From Pontiellaceae bacterium B12219 (GTDB taxonomy: Bacteria > Verrucomicrobiota > Kiritimatiellia > Kiritimatiellales > Pontiellaceae), in NCBI GenBank assembly GCA_029432795.1, contig JARNMJ010000019.1, forward strand, positions 1 to 64,000: DNA of 64,000 nt, given 5' to 3'. The notes under the pieces are model-generated. The model did not search any database and was not told the origin of the DNA. It saw nothing but the letters and a program-made list of their open reading frames with translations. This document shows, piece after piece, positions 10,148-16,481 of the stretch. Numbering within the stretch: position 1 is the stretch's first letter; every line of letters starts with the position of its first letter. The translations under genes and the position numbers were made by a program.

Positions 10148-11176
10148 TTAAGGCTCCAGCGGTGGCCAGTGTCCATGTTGCGCAATGTATTTTTCAATGG
10201 CCTGACTTTTGTAGTTCATGCCGATATAGCGGTCGCGCACGCTGGAATGAACGGTGGTCGGCATTACGTTTTCGGCGTCAATGTAGCGCTTGAAAGCACC
10301 CAGCAGTTTAAACATGCCTTTGTATTCATTGTGTTGTTTTGCGCATGGATTCAGCTGAATCGCTTTCATATAGGGCTCAAACGTCAGATCGTGCTTTTCG
10401 GCTTCTCTGAGCATCCACATGAAGGGAATATCCGACAGCACGGTTCCGTTGGAATCCGGGCGATAGCCCCCGCCGACATCGGAATGCACCCCGGCAAACC
10501 AAACCTGTTTCAGATCGACGCCCGGTTTCGGGTCCCACATCGTCGGTTTGAAGTCGTCCCGCAGTTCGTCCAGCGCCAGCGCATGGCGCACCACGGTCAT
10601 ATTGCTGCCGAGTTTACGGTCATAAAACAGGTGCTTGTTTTTGATTAAGCCGAAAATAGTAATCGGCAGTCCCAGTGCACCCACCGTATCCCAGGCGCCG
10701 ACAAATTTAATTTTCACCTCCTGCTGAACAGCATAGTTTTCCCGCCATTCATACGAGTGTGCGCAGCTTGGCGAATATTTTTTGGTTTTGTAGAGGTCGA
10801 ACGCCTCTTCAACCATGCCTCCCAGTTCGCCGCGCAGAATGCTGCAGTTATTCAGCATTCCGCAAAGGCTCCGGATGGTATAGGCCCCGCGGCTGAAACC
10901 GAAGAGATAGATTTCATCGCCCGGATCGTAGTTGTGCACCAGAAAGCGGTAGCCATCCATTACGTTTTTTTCGAGCCCCTCTCCGAAACTGCCGCCGCTC
11001 AGTTTGTCGTGATACGAGCCGATACCCCAGTCGTAGAAAACGACCTGTTTCACGCCGGCGGCATCGTGCGGAGCAATGCCGCGTGCAAATCGGAGTACAT
11101 TGGTGGCACAATCGTTTTGGCCGATTCGTTCCGGCCGGTTCCAGGTTCCGTCTGCACAGATTACGATACGTTTCAT
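10148..11176 (-). CDS. DUF2235 / Tle1-like alpha/beta hydrolase
   Basis: 342 residues. The opening IVICADGTWN, the long insert and the nucleophile elbow LFGFSRGAY (S95) are hallmarks of DUF2235, the catalytic fold of T6SS phospholipase effectors of the Tle1 group. FAGVHSDVGGGY near residue 230 supplies the typical His/Asp region. There is no signal peptide and no VgrG, PAAR or immunity gene beside it, so an effector role is not supported. A cytoplasmic lipase or esterase is the cautious reading. Confidence 0.8.
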   Translation of the reverse strand: MKRIVICADGTWNRPERIGQNDCATNVLRFARGIAPHDAAGVKQVVFYDWGIGSYHDKLSGGSFGEGLEKNVMDGYRFLVHNYDPGDEIYLFGFSRGAYTIRSLCGMLNNCSILRGELGGMVEEAFDLYKTKKYSPSCAHSYEWRENYAVQQEVKIKFVGAWDTVGALGLPITIFGLIKNKHLFYDRKLGSNMTVVRHALALDELRDDFKPTMWDPKPGVDLKQVWFAGVHSDVGGGYRPDSNGTVLSDIPFMWMLREAEKHDLTFEPYMKAIQLNPCAKQHNEYKGMFKLLGAFKRYIDAENVMPTTVHSSVRDRYIGMNYKSQAIEKYIAQHGHWPPLEP

Positions 11177-11331
11177 TATTTGCCTCCCGGGGGTAATGGA
11201 TCGTTTGAACTTCGGAAATTATATGGAGATAAGCAGGTTAAGACAAGGCGCGAATCCGTTGGTGCCCGGGCGGCTGAGTGAGGAAGGCCGAAAGGGCAAA
11301 TGCATTTCGCCGGCATCGGCCCCAACGATGG

Positions 11332-11649
11332 CTATGAAATCAGTGCGGCTAAAAAATCAGACTCTTTAATGAATTGCAGTGATGCGCCGCGCTTTTTTAA
11401 ATCAACGGCTTTTTGGGCAACGCGTGTGCAGCAGGCAAAGGAACAGCATCTGACGCCCTTGCTGCCGATGACTATATAGTCCGTTTCTTCGCTTACATTC
11501 GGCGTAAAGGTTCCGCCTTTTCGCGCAACCTCATGCTCAAGGTCCGGCCGTTCATGTCCATCAAACTTCCCGGCTAAACAAAAGCTTTTTCCGTCAAACG
11601 AGAGGTCGGGATTCTGTGAATATTCGAGATCTGGGTTCAAGGGGTTCAT
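11332..11649 (-). CDS. BRCT-domain protein
   Basis: 105 residues. From about residue 17 (LSFDGKSFCLAGKF) to the end it reads as one BRCT domain: a beta strand, HEVARKGGTFTPNVSEETDYIVIGSKG, then a final helix. BRCT domains bind phosphopeptides or DNA ends and usually sit in NAD-dependent ligases, PolC or RFC subunits; a free-standing one may be a mobile accessory gene. GGAG directly abuts the ATG, unusually close for initiation, so the true start may differ. It borders the cassette island. Confidence 0.7.
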   Translation of the reverse strand: MNPLNPDLEYSQNPDLSFDGKSFCLAGKFDGHERPDLEHEVARKGGTFTPNVSEETDYIVIGSKGVRCCSFACCTRVAQKAVDLKKRGASLQFIKESDFLAALIS

Positions 11650-11795
11650 CTCCTTTATGCTCCATTAAATCTTGGGAATGCGATGCAGCGGATTAATCAA
11701 AATCATCGCCGAACATCCTGATGCCATTGGGTTAAATGAATCGACCCCAAGTCAGTTTCTTACTTGATGGACAACCTCATATGGCTGGTTAGCAA

Positions 11796-12413
11796 TTATT
11801 TCAATTCATCCACGCTACGCAATAATGCTTTCCCGGTAGAGGTGCAAAACCAACTTCCAGATGTTTGATCAATTAGCCGTAGGTGTTGCAAATATTCGTG
11901 GTTAAATGATCTCTTATCTCTAACCAAACCCATTGAATAGGCATTTGCTAGGGTCTTTAGTATGAACTTTGTTTTCGAACTATTCTCTGAATATATCTCA
12001 GAGAGTAAAATCAAATCTCGATCGGTTAATTTACTTAATAGTCGTGCTATTTCAGGATGAATACTTCCTTCAATAAATTCTCTGGCAACTAAGTTTGCCC
12101 ATAATGATCTCATTGATTCATCACACTGCTTTTCTGCATTATCAAAGACGATGTACATTACTTCTGGTTTCACAGATGGGTGATAATTTCCTTCATGAGT
12201 ACGTTTATCTTGGACGTGTTTTGACGCCTCATGAATAGTTTGAGCTATTATGAGTTTCTGAGCTTCTTCAAGAGCATTGAATTTTTGTTCAATCATTCGA
12301 CCGATACCATGAGTGGTTGCGGTCAGGGGGTGTAATAGCTGTTTTAAAATATCCGTAAATGACACCCAGACTTCTGCAGGAATAAATTTTGTTATATCAT
12401 GTGGTTCTGTCAT
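11796..12413 (-). CDS. Abi-alpha-like (DUF4393-type) protein in a cassette position
   Basis: 205 residues, AT-rich compared with its neighbours. The segment MRSLWANLVAREF, then SIHPEIARLLSKLTDRD, then the end STGKALLRSV matches the general layout I know from Abi-alpha/DUF4393 proteins, a family named for abortive phage infection. No enzymatic motif is visible, so a defence role is only suggested by this resemblance and by its position next to attC-like sites. Its ATG is 19 bases from the attC end at 12433. No convincing attC is seen on its own 3' side, so the cassette may be decayed. Confidence 0.55.
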   Translation of the reverse strand: MTEPHDITKFIPAEVWVSFTDILKQLLHPLTATTHGIGRMIEQKFNALEEAQKLIIAQTIHEASKHVQDKRTHEGNYHPSVKPEVMYIVFDNAEKQCDESMRSLWANLVAREFIEGSIHPEIARLLSKLTDRDLILLSEIYSENSSKTKFILKTLANAYSMGLVRDKRSFNHEYLQHLRLIDQTSGSWFCTSTGKALLRSVDELK

Positions 12414-12432
12414 TATCTTCTTCTTTGCTAGC

Positions 12433-12507
12433 GTTAAACGTAAGCCGCTTGGGAATCAGACTCTGACCGAATTGCCGGGCGGTGTCCAAGTAGGCTCAAT
12501 GTTTAGG
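12433..12507 (-). other. attC-like recombination site (integron cassette)
   Basis: A 75-bp imperfect palindrome between two leftward genes. On the minus strand it opens with CCTAAAC and closes with GTTTAAC. The inner arms TGAGCCTACTTGG and (reverse complement) TAAGCCGCTTGG pair with one unpaired base, the layout of folded attC sites. The end boxes differ from the consensus RYYYAAC/GTTRRRY, so it may be a weak site. Confidence 0.6.
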
Positions 12508-12517
12508 TTCTGTATTT

Positions 12518-13318
12518 TTATCTATAAGCCAAAGCAATTGATGTGAGAACTACTAAACATAATCCCATAAAACTATAAGATATAATGGTAAAAGGTTTTT
12601 CATGAACTGAATCCCAATCCACAAAGCCATCGGAATTTAGAATGGGAGCGGTAAATAATGATCCGAAATAGAAAACTATTGTGCCATTGAGAACAAAGAT
12701 TGCGCGTTTGATAGAATTCTGAATTGAGAAATTCACTTCATCAAAAAAGTTGAAAATGGAATCGGGCACATATTTTTTGAGATCAGCTGTGTCTCCTAAC
12801 ATGTTCTGTAATGAAGTAATTTCGAGCTGTCTCAAAATCAAGTCTGTGATTGTACATGAAAATAATATATCAAAAATGGCCACAGCAAAAAGGATCTTAG
12901 TTAATGATGTTGCTTTGCCCTCTTCTGCAAGGGTTCGTGCATGCTCTATTTTGGTGATGCGCATAACCTGATAGGATTTTAAAGCGAGTGCGTAATCGAC
13001 AAACAGAATCTTAAATGTAATTCCGGCAATTAATGGTGCTGCAGATTTAATGGGTAGTGAAAACATTTTCCCATCTTCAAATAATTGCACCCAAACACCA
13101 GTTAGTAGTGAAATGATGATCGTTAAGAATAAACTATTTCCCAGTACAAATACATAACCGTGGACGCTAAATGGATTGGAGCAAGCTTGGAGGAGTTTTG
13201 ATACTGCTTTGCCACAGCTTTTCTTTAGAGCTGTCGGGAAAATGTGGTCTAAACCCGAAATCAGAAAGGCGATTGCAGAGGCAATGCCTATATATGTGCC
13301 ATAAGTACCGATTGTCAT
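12518..13318 (-). CDS. Hypothetical multi-pass membrane protein (cassette gene)
   Basis: 266 residues with about six hydrophobic helices: near the N-terminus (YIGIASAIAFLISGL), then FVLGNSLFLTIIISLLTGVW, APLIAGITFKILFVDYAL, ILFAVAIFDILFSC, AIFVLNGTIVFYFGSLF and a final pair-like segment TIISYSFMGLCLVVL. No transporter or enzyme motif is recognised. Low GC and flanking attC-like sites on both sides mark it as a gene cassette. The start lies 12 bases from the upstream attC end, as usual for cassettes. Confidence 0.65.
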   Translation of the reverse strand: MTIGTYGTYIGIASAIAFLISGLDHIFPTALKKSCGKAVSKLLQACSNPFSVHGYVFVLGNSLFLTIIISLLTGVWVQLFEDGKMFSLPIKSAAPLIAGITFKILFVDYALALKSYQVMRITKIEHARTLAEEGKATSLTKILFAVAIFDILFSCTITDLILRQLEITSLQNMLGDTADLKKYVPDSIFNFFDEVNFSIQNSIKRAIFVLNGTIVFYFGSLFTAPILNSDGFVDWDSVHEKPFTIISYSFMGLCLVVLTSIALAYR

Positions 13319-13330
13319 AGTTTTCTTATT

Positions 13331-13419
13331 GTCCTAAACGTTATGGGTGAGCCGCCGGTGAACGGAAACCTTGCTGACTCAACGGACGTTTTCACCGTTG
13401 GCTCCGCCCTTTGTTAGGC
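13331..13419 (-). other. attC recombination site (integron cassette)
   Basis: The clearest of the three sites, 89 bp. Read on the minus strand it opens with GCCTAAC, a perfect RYYYAAC box, and ends in GTTTAGGAC. The inner arms GGCGGAGCCAACGGTGAA and (reverse complement) GGGTGAGCCGCCGGTGAA pair over most of their length. It sits directly between the stop of one cassette gene (13424) and the start of the next (13318). Confidence 0.8.
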
Positions 13420-13423
13420 TTTT

Positions 13424-13897
13424 TTAGTCATTTAACCAATACATTGTTTTTTGAACGGTGATCATTGGTGTTTTACGAATGATTGGTGCTACCGAGTTGC
13501 GAATTGAAGAAAGTAAATTCTTTCCCTGAGCATGATTGAAATCAGCTTCAGTTAAAAATTTTCCATCGACAGTCTTAATCTCCTCTACGACATCACATTT
13601 GAAATATGTTTTGGCTTCATCATTTTCTAAAAGGTGAATGTCATTCCCTTTAATTTTGGAAAGAGATGTTTCTATTACTTTAGCTCGGAATTGAACGACT
13701 CTCTGTAGAGATTGGTTATCTGTTCGACTTTCAGCATAATACAGATAGAGCCAAAACTCTTTCGTTTTATCTGAAGGTAAAGTGTGTGGTTCGAACCAAA
13801 GAAATGGAAAACAGAAGTACCGTTTCCCCGACGACTTCCATTTTTTTAGCTCATCATCAAACCAGTGTGGTTCAGTTGGGTATAAATATGAATTCAT
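13424..13897 (-). CDS. Hypothetical cassette protein
   Basis: 157 residues, rich in aromatic residues near the N-terminus (FCFPFLWFEPH, FWLYLYY) and otherwise soluble, with mixed alpha/beta character. No signal peptide and no known motif. Flanked by attC sites at 13331-13419 and 13924-14011, with only a few bases between stop and attC, so the whole 0.6 kb unit has the shape of one integron cassette. Base composition is poorer in GC than the surrounding chromosome. Confidence 0.6.
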   Translation of the reverse strand: MNSYLYPTEPHWFDDELKKWKSSGKRYFCFPFLWFEPHTLPSDKTKEFWLYLYYAESRTDNQSLQRVVQFRAKVIETSLSKIKGNDIHLLENDEAKTYFKCDVVEEIKTVDGKFLTEADFNHAQGKNLLSSIRNSVAPIIRKTPMITVQKTMYWLND

Positions 13898-13923
13898 GAT
13901 TTCTCCTGTGGTATAATTTTTCA

Positions 13924-14011
13924 GTCCAACGTTATGGGTGAGCCGCCGTGCACATAAACGTTGACCGGATCAACTGGCGTTTTCACGGTAGGCTCAAACC
14001 ACTGGTTCTGC
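13924..14011 (-). other. attC recombination site (integron cassette)
   Basis: An 88-bp palindromic site. On the minus strand it ends in GTTGGAC, a perfect GTTRRRY box, and its inner arms TGAGCCTACCGTG and (reverse complement) TGAGCCGCCGTG pair with an extra base. The opening box is GCAGAAC, off consensus. Its TATGGGTGAGCCGCC part is shared with the site at 13331-13419, showing a common origin. Confidence 0.75.
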
Positions 14012-14398
14012 TTATATTTCATTTAATATTTTAGAGCGCTTTATTTCATATTCTTCATGAGAGATTAGGTTTTTGTCTTTTAATTTTTTGATTTCATTAA
14101 GCCGACTTTCAACCGATCTATAACCGGGAACTGGTTGCTGCTTGTCGTCATCAAGAGTGGTTGTGTAGGAAAATTCTTCTGTGGGAATGCCTTCATCAGT
14201 AAATAGGTTAATTGCTCCAAATATTGCTCCGAGGAGTGCTCCGCCTGTCCAAAGTAGGCCAAACCAAACCGGGCCATCATTATCTTTACTGATCGTTGGA
14301 ATCAGCACAGTGACGCCAATGATTGCGAAGATTCCTCCCATTATCATTTGCATGAAGGAGGAAGATTTACTTGGTTTTATTTTTCCACGTGTTTTCAT
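14012..14398 (-). CDS. Small membrane protein with a C-terminal SHOCT domain (cassette gene)
   Basis: 128 residues. Two membrane helices (about 16-35 and 47-66) are followed by a hydrophilic linker and a C-terminal SHOCT-like motif, LNEIKKLKDKNLISHEEYEIKRSKIL, the short helix-turn-helix often found at the ends of small bacterial membrane proteins and thought to mediate oligomerisation. It is the first cassette gene in reading direction. No integrase gene lies upstream of it. Confidence 0.7.
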   Translation of the reverse strand: MKTRGKIKPSKSSSFMQMIMGGIFAIIGVTVLIPTISKDNDGPVWFGLLWTGGALLGAIFGAINLFTDEGIPTEEFSYTTTLDDDKQQPVPGYRSVESRLNEIKKLKDKNLISHEEYEIKRSKILNEI

Positions 14399-14635
14399 TT
14401 TTTGTCCATGCAGAACAGTGTATTAGACGGACGTTGATAATTCAGGGTGTTTTATAGGGGGCCGTAATGACCGATATTATCCTGTTACAAGGAGTGAGTT
14501 TATAAAGAATACAATTAATTGTTTCGATATGAAATTTGTAAAATAATTCTAATAAATAGGCTAAATCCTGAAAAAGGGTGGGTTTGGGAGTGGGGATTCA
14601 TTGGTCAGCGTCAGTGAGCTGTTGGAACAATAAAT

Positions 14636-14705
14636 TGGAGGGATGCCGTCCTCGGCGTCCGTAGCTGAAGCGCGCGCGGCGGACATTGAGGATAATGTCC
14701 CTCCA
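14636..14705. repeat. Dispersed double-hairpin element, intergenic copy
   Basis: A 70-bp imperfect palindrome with ends TGGAGGGA and TCCCTCCA. Inside are two hairpins: GGATGCCG-TCCT-CGGCGTCC (one G-T pair) and GGACATT-GAGGAT-AATGTCC. Related sequence occurs at 20518-20550 in metG and 25675-25729 in the AddB-like gene, so this is a repeat family and not a one-off hairpin. Confidence 0.7.
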
Positions 14706-14790
14706 TCCTGCGCGTACTATCGCAGGCATCTTGCCTGCTCCTTGTGGGGCGGGGATTTTCTTAATTGAGTGTCAGTTGGTCTGCCCCCTT

Positions 14791-14829
14791 ACACAAAAGC
14801 ATTTCCAAGGATTGGAAATGCTTTTGTGT
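14791..14829. other. Perfect 17-bp stem hairpin built around the TTCCA-N5-TGGAA palindrome
   Basis: Arms 14791-14807 and 14813-14829 are exact reverse complements, with the 5-base loop AGGAT; the innermost ten paired positions are the dispersed TTCCA/TGGAA palindrome. It lies 32 bases beyond the fumA stop, where a 3'-end hairpin would be expected, but no T-run follows on the minus strand (AAGGGGG instead), so it is not a classic intrinsic terminator. Confidence 0.7.
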
Positions 14830-14861
14830 GACACGGTCTGATTTCTCAGCGTCGCAGGTAA

Positions 14862-16481
14862 TTATTTCCCCTTCAGAATGTCGGCGAAGAAGTTGTTGCC
14901 TTTGTCGTCGACGAGGATGATGGCGGGGAAATCGACCACTTCAATTTTGCGGACGGCTTCCATGCCGAGTTCTTCCATATCGACGATTTCAACTTTCTTG
15001 ATGTTCTTTTCGGCGAGCAGAGCGGCGGGGCCGCCGACGGAGCCGAGGTAGAATCCGCCGTGTTTGGCACAGGCATCGGTTACGCTCTGGGCGCGGTTGC
15101 CTTTGGCGAGCATGATCATCGAACCGTGCTGCTGCTGGAAGCCTTCCACATAGGGATCCATGCGCTGGGCGGTGGTGGGGCCGAACGAGCCGGAGGCTTT
15201 TCCTTTCGGTGTTTTGGCCGGGCCGGCGTAGTAGACCGGGTGGTCTTTAAAGTACTGCGGCATCGGCTCGCCGCGATCCAGAATTTCCTGAATCTTGAGG
15301 TGGGCAATGTCGCGCGCCACGATGAGCGGGCCGTTGAGGCGGACGCGCGTGGTGACGGGATAGTTTGAAAGGTCGGCCAGAATTTCGTCCATCGGGCGGT
15401 TCAGATCGATGACCGGAGCATCATCTTCGAGTTTGCCGATATTGGCGGGCGCATATTTGGCGGGATCGTGTTCGAGCTGTTCGAGGAAGATGCCGTCTTT
15501 GGTGATTTTGGCCTTAATATTCCGGTCGGCAGAGCAGGAAACGCCGATGCCGACGGGGCAGCTGGCGGCGTGGCGCGGCATGCGGATGACGCGGACATCG
15601 TGGCAGAAATATTTTCCGCCGAACTGCGCGCCGATTTTTGAATCGCGGCTCATCTGCAGCACTTTTTCTTCCCATTCGAGGTCGCGGTAAACACGGCCGG
15701 TTTCGTCTCCGGTGGTTGGTAGGTCGTCGAGGGCGCCGGTGGAGGCCATCTTGACATATTTCATGGTGGCTTCGGCGGAGGTGCCGCCGATGACGACCAC
15801 ATAGTGGTAGGGCGGGCAGGCGGCGGTGCCGATATTAAAGAACTCGGCTTTCAGGAATTCTTCGAGGTTTTCTTCGGTGAGCAGCGATTTGGTTTTCTGG
15901 TAGAGATAGGATTTATTGGCCGATCCGCCGCCTTTGGTCACGAAAGTGAGATCGTATTCCATTCCTTTTCCGGAATAGATGTCGATCTGCGCGGGCAGGT
16001 TGTTGCCGGTGTTCTTCTCGGTGAACATGTCGAGCGGTGCAATCTGGGAATAGCGAAGGTTGAAATCCTGGAAGCAGCGATAGACTCCTTTGGAGAAGGC
16101 TTCCTTTTCGTCGAAATCGGTCCAGACCTGATTGCCTTTGCTGCCGACGACAATGGCTGTGCCGGTGTCCTGGCAGGTGGGCAGCTCGCCATAGGCGGCG
16201 ATGATGGAGTTTTCCAGGAAGCAGCGGGCCACGAAGATATCGTTTTCGCTGGCTTCGGGGTCGTCAAGAATCTTGGCAACCTGCTGCATGTGGGCCGGGC
16301 GCAGGAAGAAGGAAACATCGTGGAATGCTTCGTAGGCAAGGTGTTCAAGAGCTTCTTTTTCAACAACAAGCACATCCTTTCCGTTGAATTGGTCAACTCG
16401 TACGCCTTCGGTGGTGAGGAGGCGGTATTGGGTTTTGTCGCCGCTGTGCTGAAAAGTCGGGGTATAGGTATATTCGCTCAT
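14862..16481 (-). CDS. fumA: Class I (iron-sulfur) fumarate hydratase
   Basis: 539 residues, the single-chain FumA/FumB type that hydrates fumarate to malate in the TCA cycle. C103 (PTCQDTGTA), C222 (GTAACPPYH) and C316 (GVSCSADRN) match the three cysteines that hold the labile [4Fe-4S] cluster in E. coli FumA (105, 224, 318). [10 protein letters not shown] and [11 protein letters not shown] belong to the substrate site. Length and start agree with the family. Transcribed alone; the divergent DUF481 gene begins 150 bases away. Oxygen-sensitive fumarases of this class are common in anaerobes. Confidence 0.92.

Follow-up and report, generated by a model that had tools for sequence, protein, structure and literature searches.

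The window analysed here is a 64,000-nucleotide stretch (G000:C110:1-64000) from a marine Pontiella-type bacterium. It is part of contig C110, which is 73.8 kb long and belongs to a draft assembly of 273 contigs. The related records adjoining it in the comparison are those of Pontiellaceae, phylum Kiritimatiellota. Four genes on the minus strand form a cluster of integron cassettes between two chromosomal genes annotated with Pfam. The left flank (10148..11176, minus strand) encodes a Tle1-like phospholipase-fold protein, and the right flank (14862..16481, minus strand) encodes a class I fumarase with Fumerase and Fumerase_C domains. The fumarase gene lies outside the cluster and is conserved in most genus-mates. 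A near-perfect inverted repeat, ACAAAAGCATTTCC...GGAAATGCTTTTGTGT, was found behind the fumarase gene at 14791-14829 and is probably a terminator.

The cassette genes were annotated as open reading frames and searched against Pfam. Cassette 1 (14012..14398, minus strand) encodes a membrane protein of 128 aa with a SHOCT-like C-terminus that scored below the Pfam cut-off. Cassette 2 (13424..13897, minus strand) encodes an unknown protein of 157 aa. Cassette 3 (12518..13318, minus strand) encodes a 266-aa membrane protein with weak similarity to MASE10, also below the cut-off. Cassette 4 (11796..12413, minus strand), which was not part of the original prediction, encodes a 205-aa Abi_alpha-like protein (PF14337, 31.0 bits against a cut-off of 29). 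PADLOC and NCBIfam searches of the cassettes gave nothing useful, and the cassette 4 gene reached an E-value of 0.02 at best in PADLOC. Integron cassettes are known to carry phage defence functions, and an Abi_alpha-like cassette fits this pattern. From its Pfam match, the cassette 4 gene is a candidate for phage defence by abortive infection.

As had been proposed from the sequence alone, the genes run leftward, alternate with attC sites and are low in GC; their GC content is 36-38%, compared with 52% for the window. Each reading frame is followed by an attC in the same direction. A relative of the cassette 2 gene with 78% amino acid identity is present in the main integron array of another genome of the genus, G024, as a cassette directly after an attC. 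The cassettes are therefore mobile and not fixed genes. In the sister species G001 (Pontiellaceae B1224, L066), the Tle1-like and fumarase genes are 37 bp apart with nothing between them, and the segment corresponding to window positions 11199-14861 is missing. This difference is either a gain in the window genome or a loss in G001, and other relatives have yet other neighbours.

A gene for a BRCT-domain protein (11332..11649, minus strand; Pfam) lies between the cluster and the left flank. It is probably not a cassette, because the covariance model described below finds no attC with it. Small BRCT-domain proteins occupy variable positions across the genus (window 11332-11649; L148 6813-7121; L154, L206, L207). 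A BRCT gene beside intI in G001 was considered as a shared integron flank. This idea was dropped, since the gene is convergent (tail to tail) with intI there and is not linked to integrons elsewhere.

attC sites and the interrupted far end

Three attC sites had been predicted at 12433-12507, 13331-13419 and 13924-14011. A covariance model (R1) was trained on 16 attC sites from elsewhere in the assembly (contigs C15, C16, C23, C24, C216, C228 and C231), excluding the sites of the window. Compensatory changes were found at 9 of the 13 predicted pairs in this training set. The model recovered all three sites on the minus strand within 1.6 kb, far above chance, although the E-values of such a home-made model are approximate. 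attC1 (13922..14013) is intact and scored 101.7 bits (E 3.6e-25), which is the highest score of any attC in the genome. attC2 (13331..13421) scored 59.5 bits (E 8.3e-14), and attC3 (12424..12515) scored 53.5 bits (E 3.5e-12). The next-best match in the 64-kb window had 7.9 bits (E 6.5). The model matched 38 attC sites genome-wide at E ≤ 0.1. The core GTTGGAC of attC1 and the intact R'' box GCCTAAC of attC2 are both in the sequence where they had been noticed. The crossover triplet is GTT in attC1 and attC2. In attC3 it is GCT, the only such case among 87 aligned attC sites.

These 87 sites, from this genome and related ones, showed compensatory changes at 12 of 13 stem pairs, 94% of cells paired and a covariation score of 0.65, compared with 0.16 for shuffled and at most 0.10 for slid versions, although the alignment was fitted to the structure and these figures lean in its favour. 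The slid controls paired at about 35%. Single-sequence DNA folding of the cassette-orientation strand was only weakly better than that of shuffled sequences (z of −2.8, −1.3 and −0.3). The evidence for attC thus comes from the covariance model and the covariation in it rather than from how stably one site folds. The unremarkable folding would suit ordinary dispersed repeats or terminators, but this reading is refuted by the model scores, by the compensatory changes and by the presence of the same kind of site in long arrays adjoining intI in several genomes. An Rfam scan of the window returned no match, and was uninformative as no attC match was reported. Two further attC matches, at G000:C204:16848-16938 (60.7 bits) and G000:C273:99562-99654 (40.4 bits), stand alone and lack a clear attI-like motif in their vicinity; they are possibly solo cassettes.

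At its far end the cluster carries the opening nine bases of another attC, attC4 (GCTAACCAG; 11785..11793, minus strand), which is interrupted after AACCAG by the end of an insertion sequence. The adjoining segment (11690..11784, plus strand) consists of this IS end and a transposase C-terminus with its stop at 11767. Past AACCAG, the sequence is common to G028, G026, G023 and G032 (BLAST against loci L198-L201, 72-80% identity). The junction AACCAG|CCATCTGAGG is identical in the window, in L198-L201 and in contig C231 of the window genome. An intact end with a longer frame is present in G032 (L201:5189-5779) and was annotated as Transposase_20, of the IS110/IS116/IS902 family. A fourth attC of another subtype was also considered for the region behind the Abi_alpha-like gene, but was ruled out when translation of the relatives gave the C-terminal part of an IS110 transposase.

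Some insertion sequences of the IS1111 group, such as ISKpn4 and ISPst6, insert at one end of attC; they are described in PMC11187229, which cites Tetu and Holmes and Post and Hall. Like the elements treated there, the window remnant belongs to the IS110/IS1111 family, lies at an attC end and has the same junction (AACCAG|CC) in five genomes. Unlike them, it keeps just the transposase C-terminus and one IS end. By its sequence, the fragment looks like the remnant of an IS1111-attC-type element. Ends of IS110/IS1111-family elements at the same attC point were seen in five Kiritimatiellota genomes (L198-L201 and L033 7946), a candidate IS1111-attC lineage in this phylum.

The attI-like head and the integrase

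The cluster is headed by an attI-like site (14414..14432, minus strand), a feature beyond those originally described. It reads AACAGTGTATTAGACGGAC on the plus strand and GTCCGTCTAATACACT|GTT on the cassette strand, with the boundary at CTAATACACT|GTTCTGC. The site is positioned exactly where the first cassette must start. In seven intI-linked arrays of the genus, the boundary between the first cassette and the intI leader has AACAGT followed by a partly conserved stretch; on contig C216 of the window genome it is AACAGTGTGTTAGATCG. The window site is the best 18-mer match in the window and lies exactly at the array boundary. It agrees with the intI-linked attI of C216 at 15 of 19 positions, with a cluster head at C231:23073-23091 at 19 of 19, and with heads in G027 (C7) and G024 at 18 and 17 of 19. 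The 19-mer pattern AACAGTGTNNTAGACGGAC occurs at four places in 28 genomes (the window, C231, G024 and G027). All four head cassettes and none adjoins intI. The cassette sides of the window and C231 heads are unrelated (11/30), despite the identity of the sites.

The remainder of an attI module of about 127 bp extends over 14433..14540 as a leader on the non-cassette side. It is homologous to G024:C1:3040186-3040311 and G027:C7:197845-197970, with 77-79% identity past the crossover (E about 3e-23). The copies in these two sister species are at a different locus, in an intI-less cluster beside a threonine dehydratase gene. No remnant of intI was found at 14380-14880, between the attI-like site and the fumarase gene, and promoter consensus matches in the module are weak. 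The minimal core of attI2, AATAAAATGTT (PMC12901181), matches the window sequence AATACACTGTT at 9 of 11 positions. The window site may be functional; the exact-boundary cassette difference between G024 and G027, described below, bears on this indirectly.

Genome-wide searches with TIGR02249 and PF00589 found no tyrosine recombinase anywhere on C110, which extends the original statement that none is within reach. An integron integrase is encoded on another contig, at C216:1220-2161 (TIGR02249, 425 bits against a cut-off of 265). The cassettes of C216 run away from intI in the usual divergent arrangement. In the window genome intI lies on C216 only, and it does not adjoin the attI-like site of C110. 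Because C110 has no intI, while the assembly elsewhere contains a true integron integrase along with attI and array contigs, the cluster qualifies as a CALIN (cluster of attC sites lacking integron-integrase) in a genome whose intI has an array of its own. The earlier reading as a CALIN is thus supported, with attC scores far above chance and genes that are not fixed in position.

intI was detected above the cut-off in 14 of the 28 genomes of the genus. The integrase of C216 belongs to a 457-aa frame if its upstream part (L015, about 880-1220) is included. The extra N-terminal part, of at least about 110 aa, resembles a second core-binding domain, and long intI forms are also present in G005, G009, G012, G018 and G021.

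Orphan attI sites in related genomes

A looser motif, AACAGTKKRYTARRCGGA, with one mismatch allowed, gave 39 matches in 58 genomes, compared with 7 for the reversed pattern. Nearly all matches come from this genus or from f2, a neighbouring family of the order. Among 27 examined sites without a full intI nearby, 18 have attC within 5 kb. These attC matches lie on the cassette side in 33 of 34 cases and in cassette orientation in all 34; the lone exception belongs to a neighbouring attI. Near the other 9 of the 27 orphan sites there is no attC, and chance will account for some of these matches. The window genome has at least four attI-headed clusters without intI (C110, C206, C228 and C231).

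The attI modules form families in which similarity starts exactly at the crossover. Type B modules of 215-275 bp occur in four copies in G024 and G027, and type C modules of 188 bp in two copies in G024. The 215-275-bp module was seen three times within 9 kb in G027 (L253 9311, 11264 and 17908) and once in G024 at the corresponding position (L254 8664), as tandem attI heads without intI. Five modules that are 97.5-100% identical on the intI side are present on three contigs of G005 (L289-L292, L152). In four of the five, intI is cut 302-415 bp past attI, at differing points, and the cut-off points adjoin insertion-sequence-like ends (AAAAAGGGTCA) and IS110-type transposases. Each of the five modules then has different DNA on the cassette side, from the crossover on. 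In G032, a 43-aa scrap of intI was found beside an orphan attI. The main integron of G024 has about ten tandem 240-bp cassettes (L219:5162-7576) whose attC sites are nearly identical and in which no reading frame is evident, and TRF gave 94% matches over 10.1 copies.

The threonine dehydratase (ilvA) locus of G024 and G027 offers a direct comparison of cassette content. The two genomes are 93% identical from the threonine dehydratase gene through the module to the A of AACAGT. Homology ends exactly at the attI AAC and starts again precisely at the AAC of the first attC, so that the breakpoints fall on the two crossover points. Between them lies a first cassette that is wholly different in the two genomes; the second is common to both (93%). 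Both genomes lack intI at this locus; the intI of G024 is 735 kb away, and none was found in the assembly of G027, which holds unplaced array pieces. Because the two genomes agree on the intI side, intI was lost before the two split, and the change of the first cassette therefore needed an enzyme from elsewhere. However, the common crossover triplet is GCT, expected to be a poor IntI substrate, and for this reason exchange in trans is not taken as proved. Alternatively, the difference may come from homologous recombination between attC arms or from older cassette turnover. In a search for an empty site, close copies of the threonine dehydratase gene among genus-mates were found only in G024 and G027. 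The window module is without a syntenic copy in other species, and the suggestion of exchange in trans is drawn from G024/G027 and G005.

Origin of the cluster and comparison with known systems

The explanation that we favour, and hold with reasonable confidence, is that the cluster is the remains or an incomplete copy of an integron: an attI platform that has no integrase beside it and is probably still usable by the IntI of the genome in trans. The cluster would then be a four-cassette integron segment that retained attI and about 110 bp of leader and lost intI. From known integron biology, its cassettes would have entered through ordinary IntI recombination (attI × attC), and the first ones would be expressed from a promoter in the module. 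The IntI of C216 could still act on the cluster in trans. The far end is closed, since attC3 has GCT at the crossover and attC4 was cut by the IS110/IS1111-family element. The window cluster belongs with the other attI-headed clusters without intI in the genome, described above. We are less sure that capture in trans is still ongoing, and likewise that the cluster originated as a decayed or partly copied integron.

The most serious rival is a pure fossil: a formerly complete integron at this place whose intI disappeared long ago and whose cassettes are now inherited without further exchange. The closed far end agrees with this, and decay would also predict the four G005 loci at which just the first 300-415 bp of intI remain, as well as the scrap in G032. 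Yet the core of attI is intact, and so is attC1, the top-scoring site of the genome; a functional-looking IntI is present; and the cassettes at the orphan attI of G024 and G027 differ with exact boundaries. We regard the fossil as possible but rather doubtful. Successive insertion of the cassettes by IntI into a secondary chromosomal site (attG), with no prior integron, has been reported as a way for cassettes to enter genomes (work cited in PMC12444791 and PMC12901181), and a single IntI elsewhere and the empty locus of the sister species would suit it. This route is disfavoured and improbable, because the head is a recurring module rather than local sequence: it equals another cluster head at 19 of 19 positions, and the 127-bp module recurs at unrelated loci of this and other species, while attG sites would not have a leader in common. 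A misassembly that separated the cluster from a main array beside intI is more improbable still. The assembly is a draft, and array contigs C15, C16, C23 and C24 are clearly broken at repeats. Nevertheless, the cluster has an attI-like head and is flanked within its contig by ordinary chromosomal genes to the left and right, the intI-less clusters on C206, C228 and C231 have at least 23 kb of contig on the integrase side without intI, and the single-contig genome G024 has the same arrangement.

The favoured platform might also be part of a wider system of one integrase and many docks in Pontiella-type genomes. In such a system attI modules of 100-400 bp, with homology that starts exactly at the crossover, would have multiplied through the genome although no functioning intI went with them, and every module would gather its own cassettes by way of the one IntI in trans. 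We consider this quite conceivable, though somewhat short of an even chance. If true, it would be a source of CALINs distinct from decay in place and from attG insertion.

CALINs are proposed to be degraded integrons and are roughly as common as complete integrons in genome surveys, according to the account in PMC9024848 (IntegronFinder). Whether they arise by decay or by integration elsewhere is debated. Like the CALINs of that account, the window cluster has three full attC sites with cassettes, no nearby intI and a complete integron in the same genome. Unlike them, it keeps a recognisable attI-like head. According to the sources, attI is poorly described outside class 1 integrons, and they report none at the heads of CALINs; such heads would usually pass unseen because the tools ignore attI outside that class. 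In Xanthomonas, PMC12444791 describes several CALIN loci away from the resident ilvD integron. The situation here is similar in that several intI-less clusters occupy particular loci of a genome with a complete integron elsewhere; it differs in the attI-like modules that head the clusters, whereas the account of the Xanthomonas loci in that paper reports no attI at their heads.

A search of the open-access literature found nothing on point for multiple or orphan attI and no paper treating Kiritimatiellota and integrons together. The CALIN is already a known kind, and the repeated attI-headed form is new. Repeated orphan attI heads suggest how scattered cassette clusters arise and that they may keep changing. 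A genus with recognisable intI-linked and orphan attI makes the origin of CALINs testable, and attI consensus sequences are supplied here for the phylum Kiritimatiellota. A further parallel is the Delta-attI-type cassettes of class 1 and class 2 integrons (PMC12901181), which also have extra attI copies away from intI, used there by IntI. Those cassettes lie within an array and have attI at the 3′-end in place of attC, whereas here attI heads a separate cluster with its own leader of 100-275 bp.
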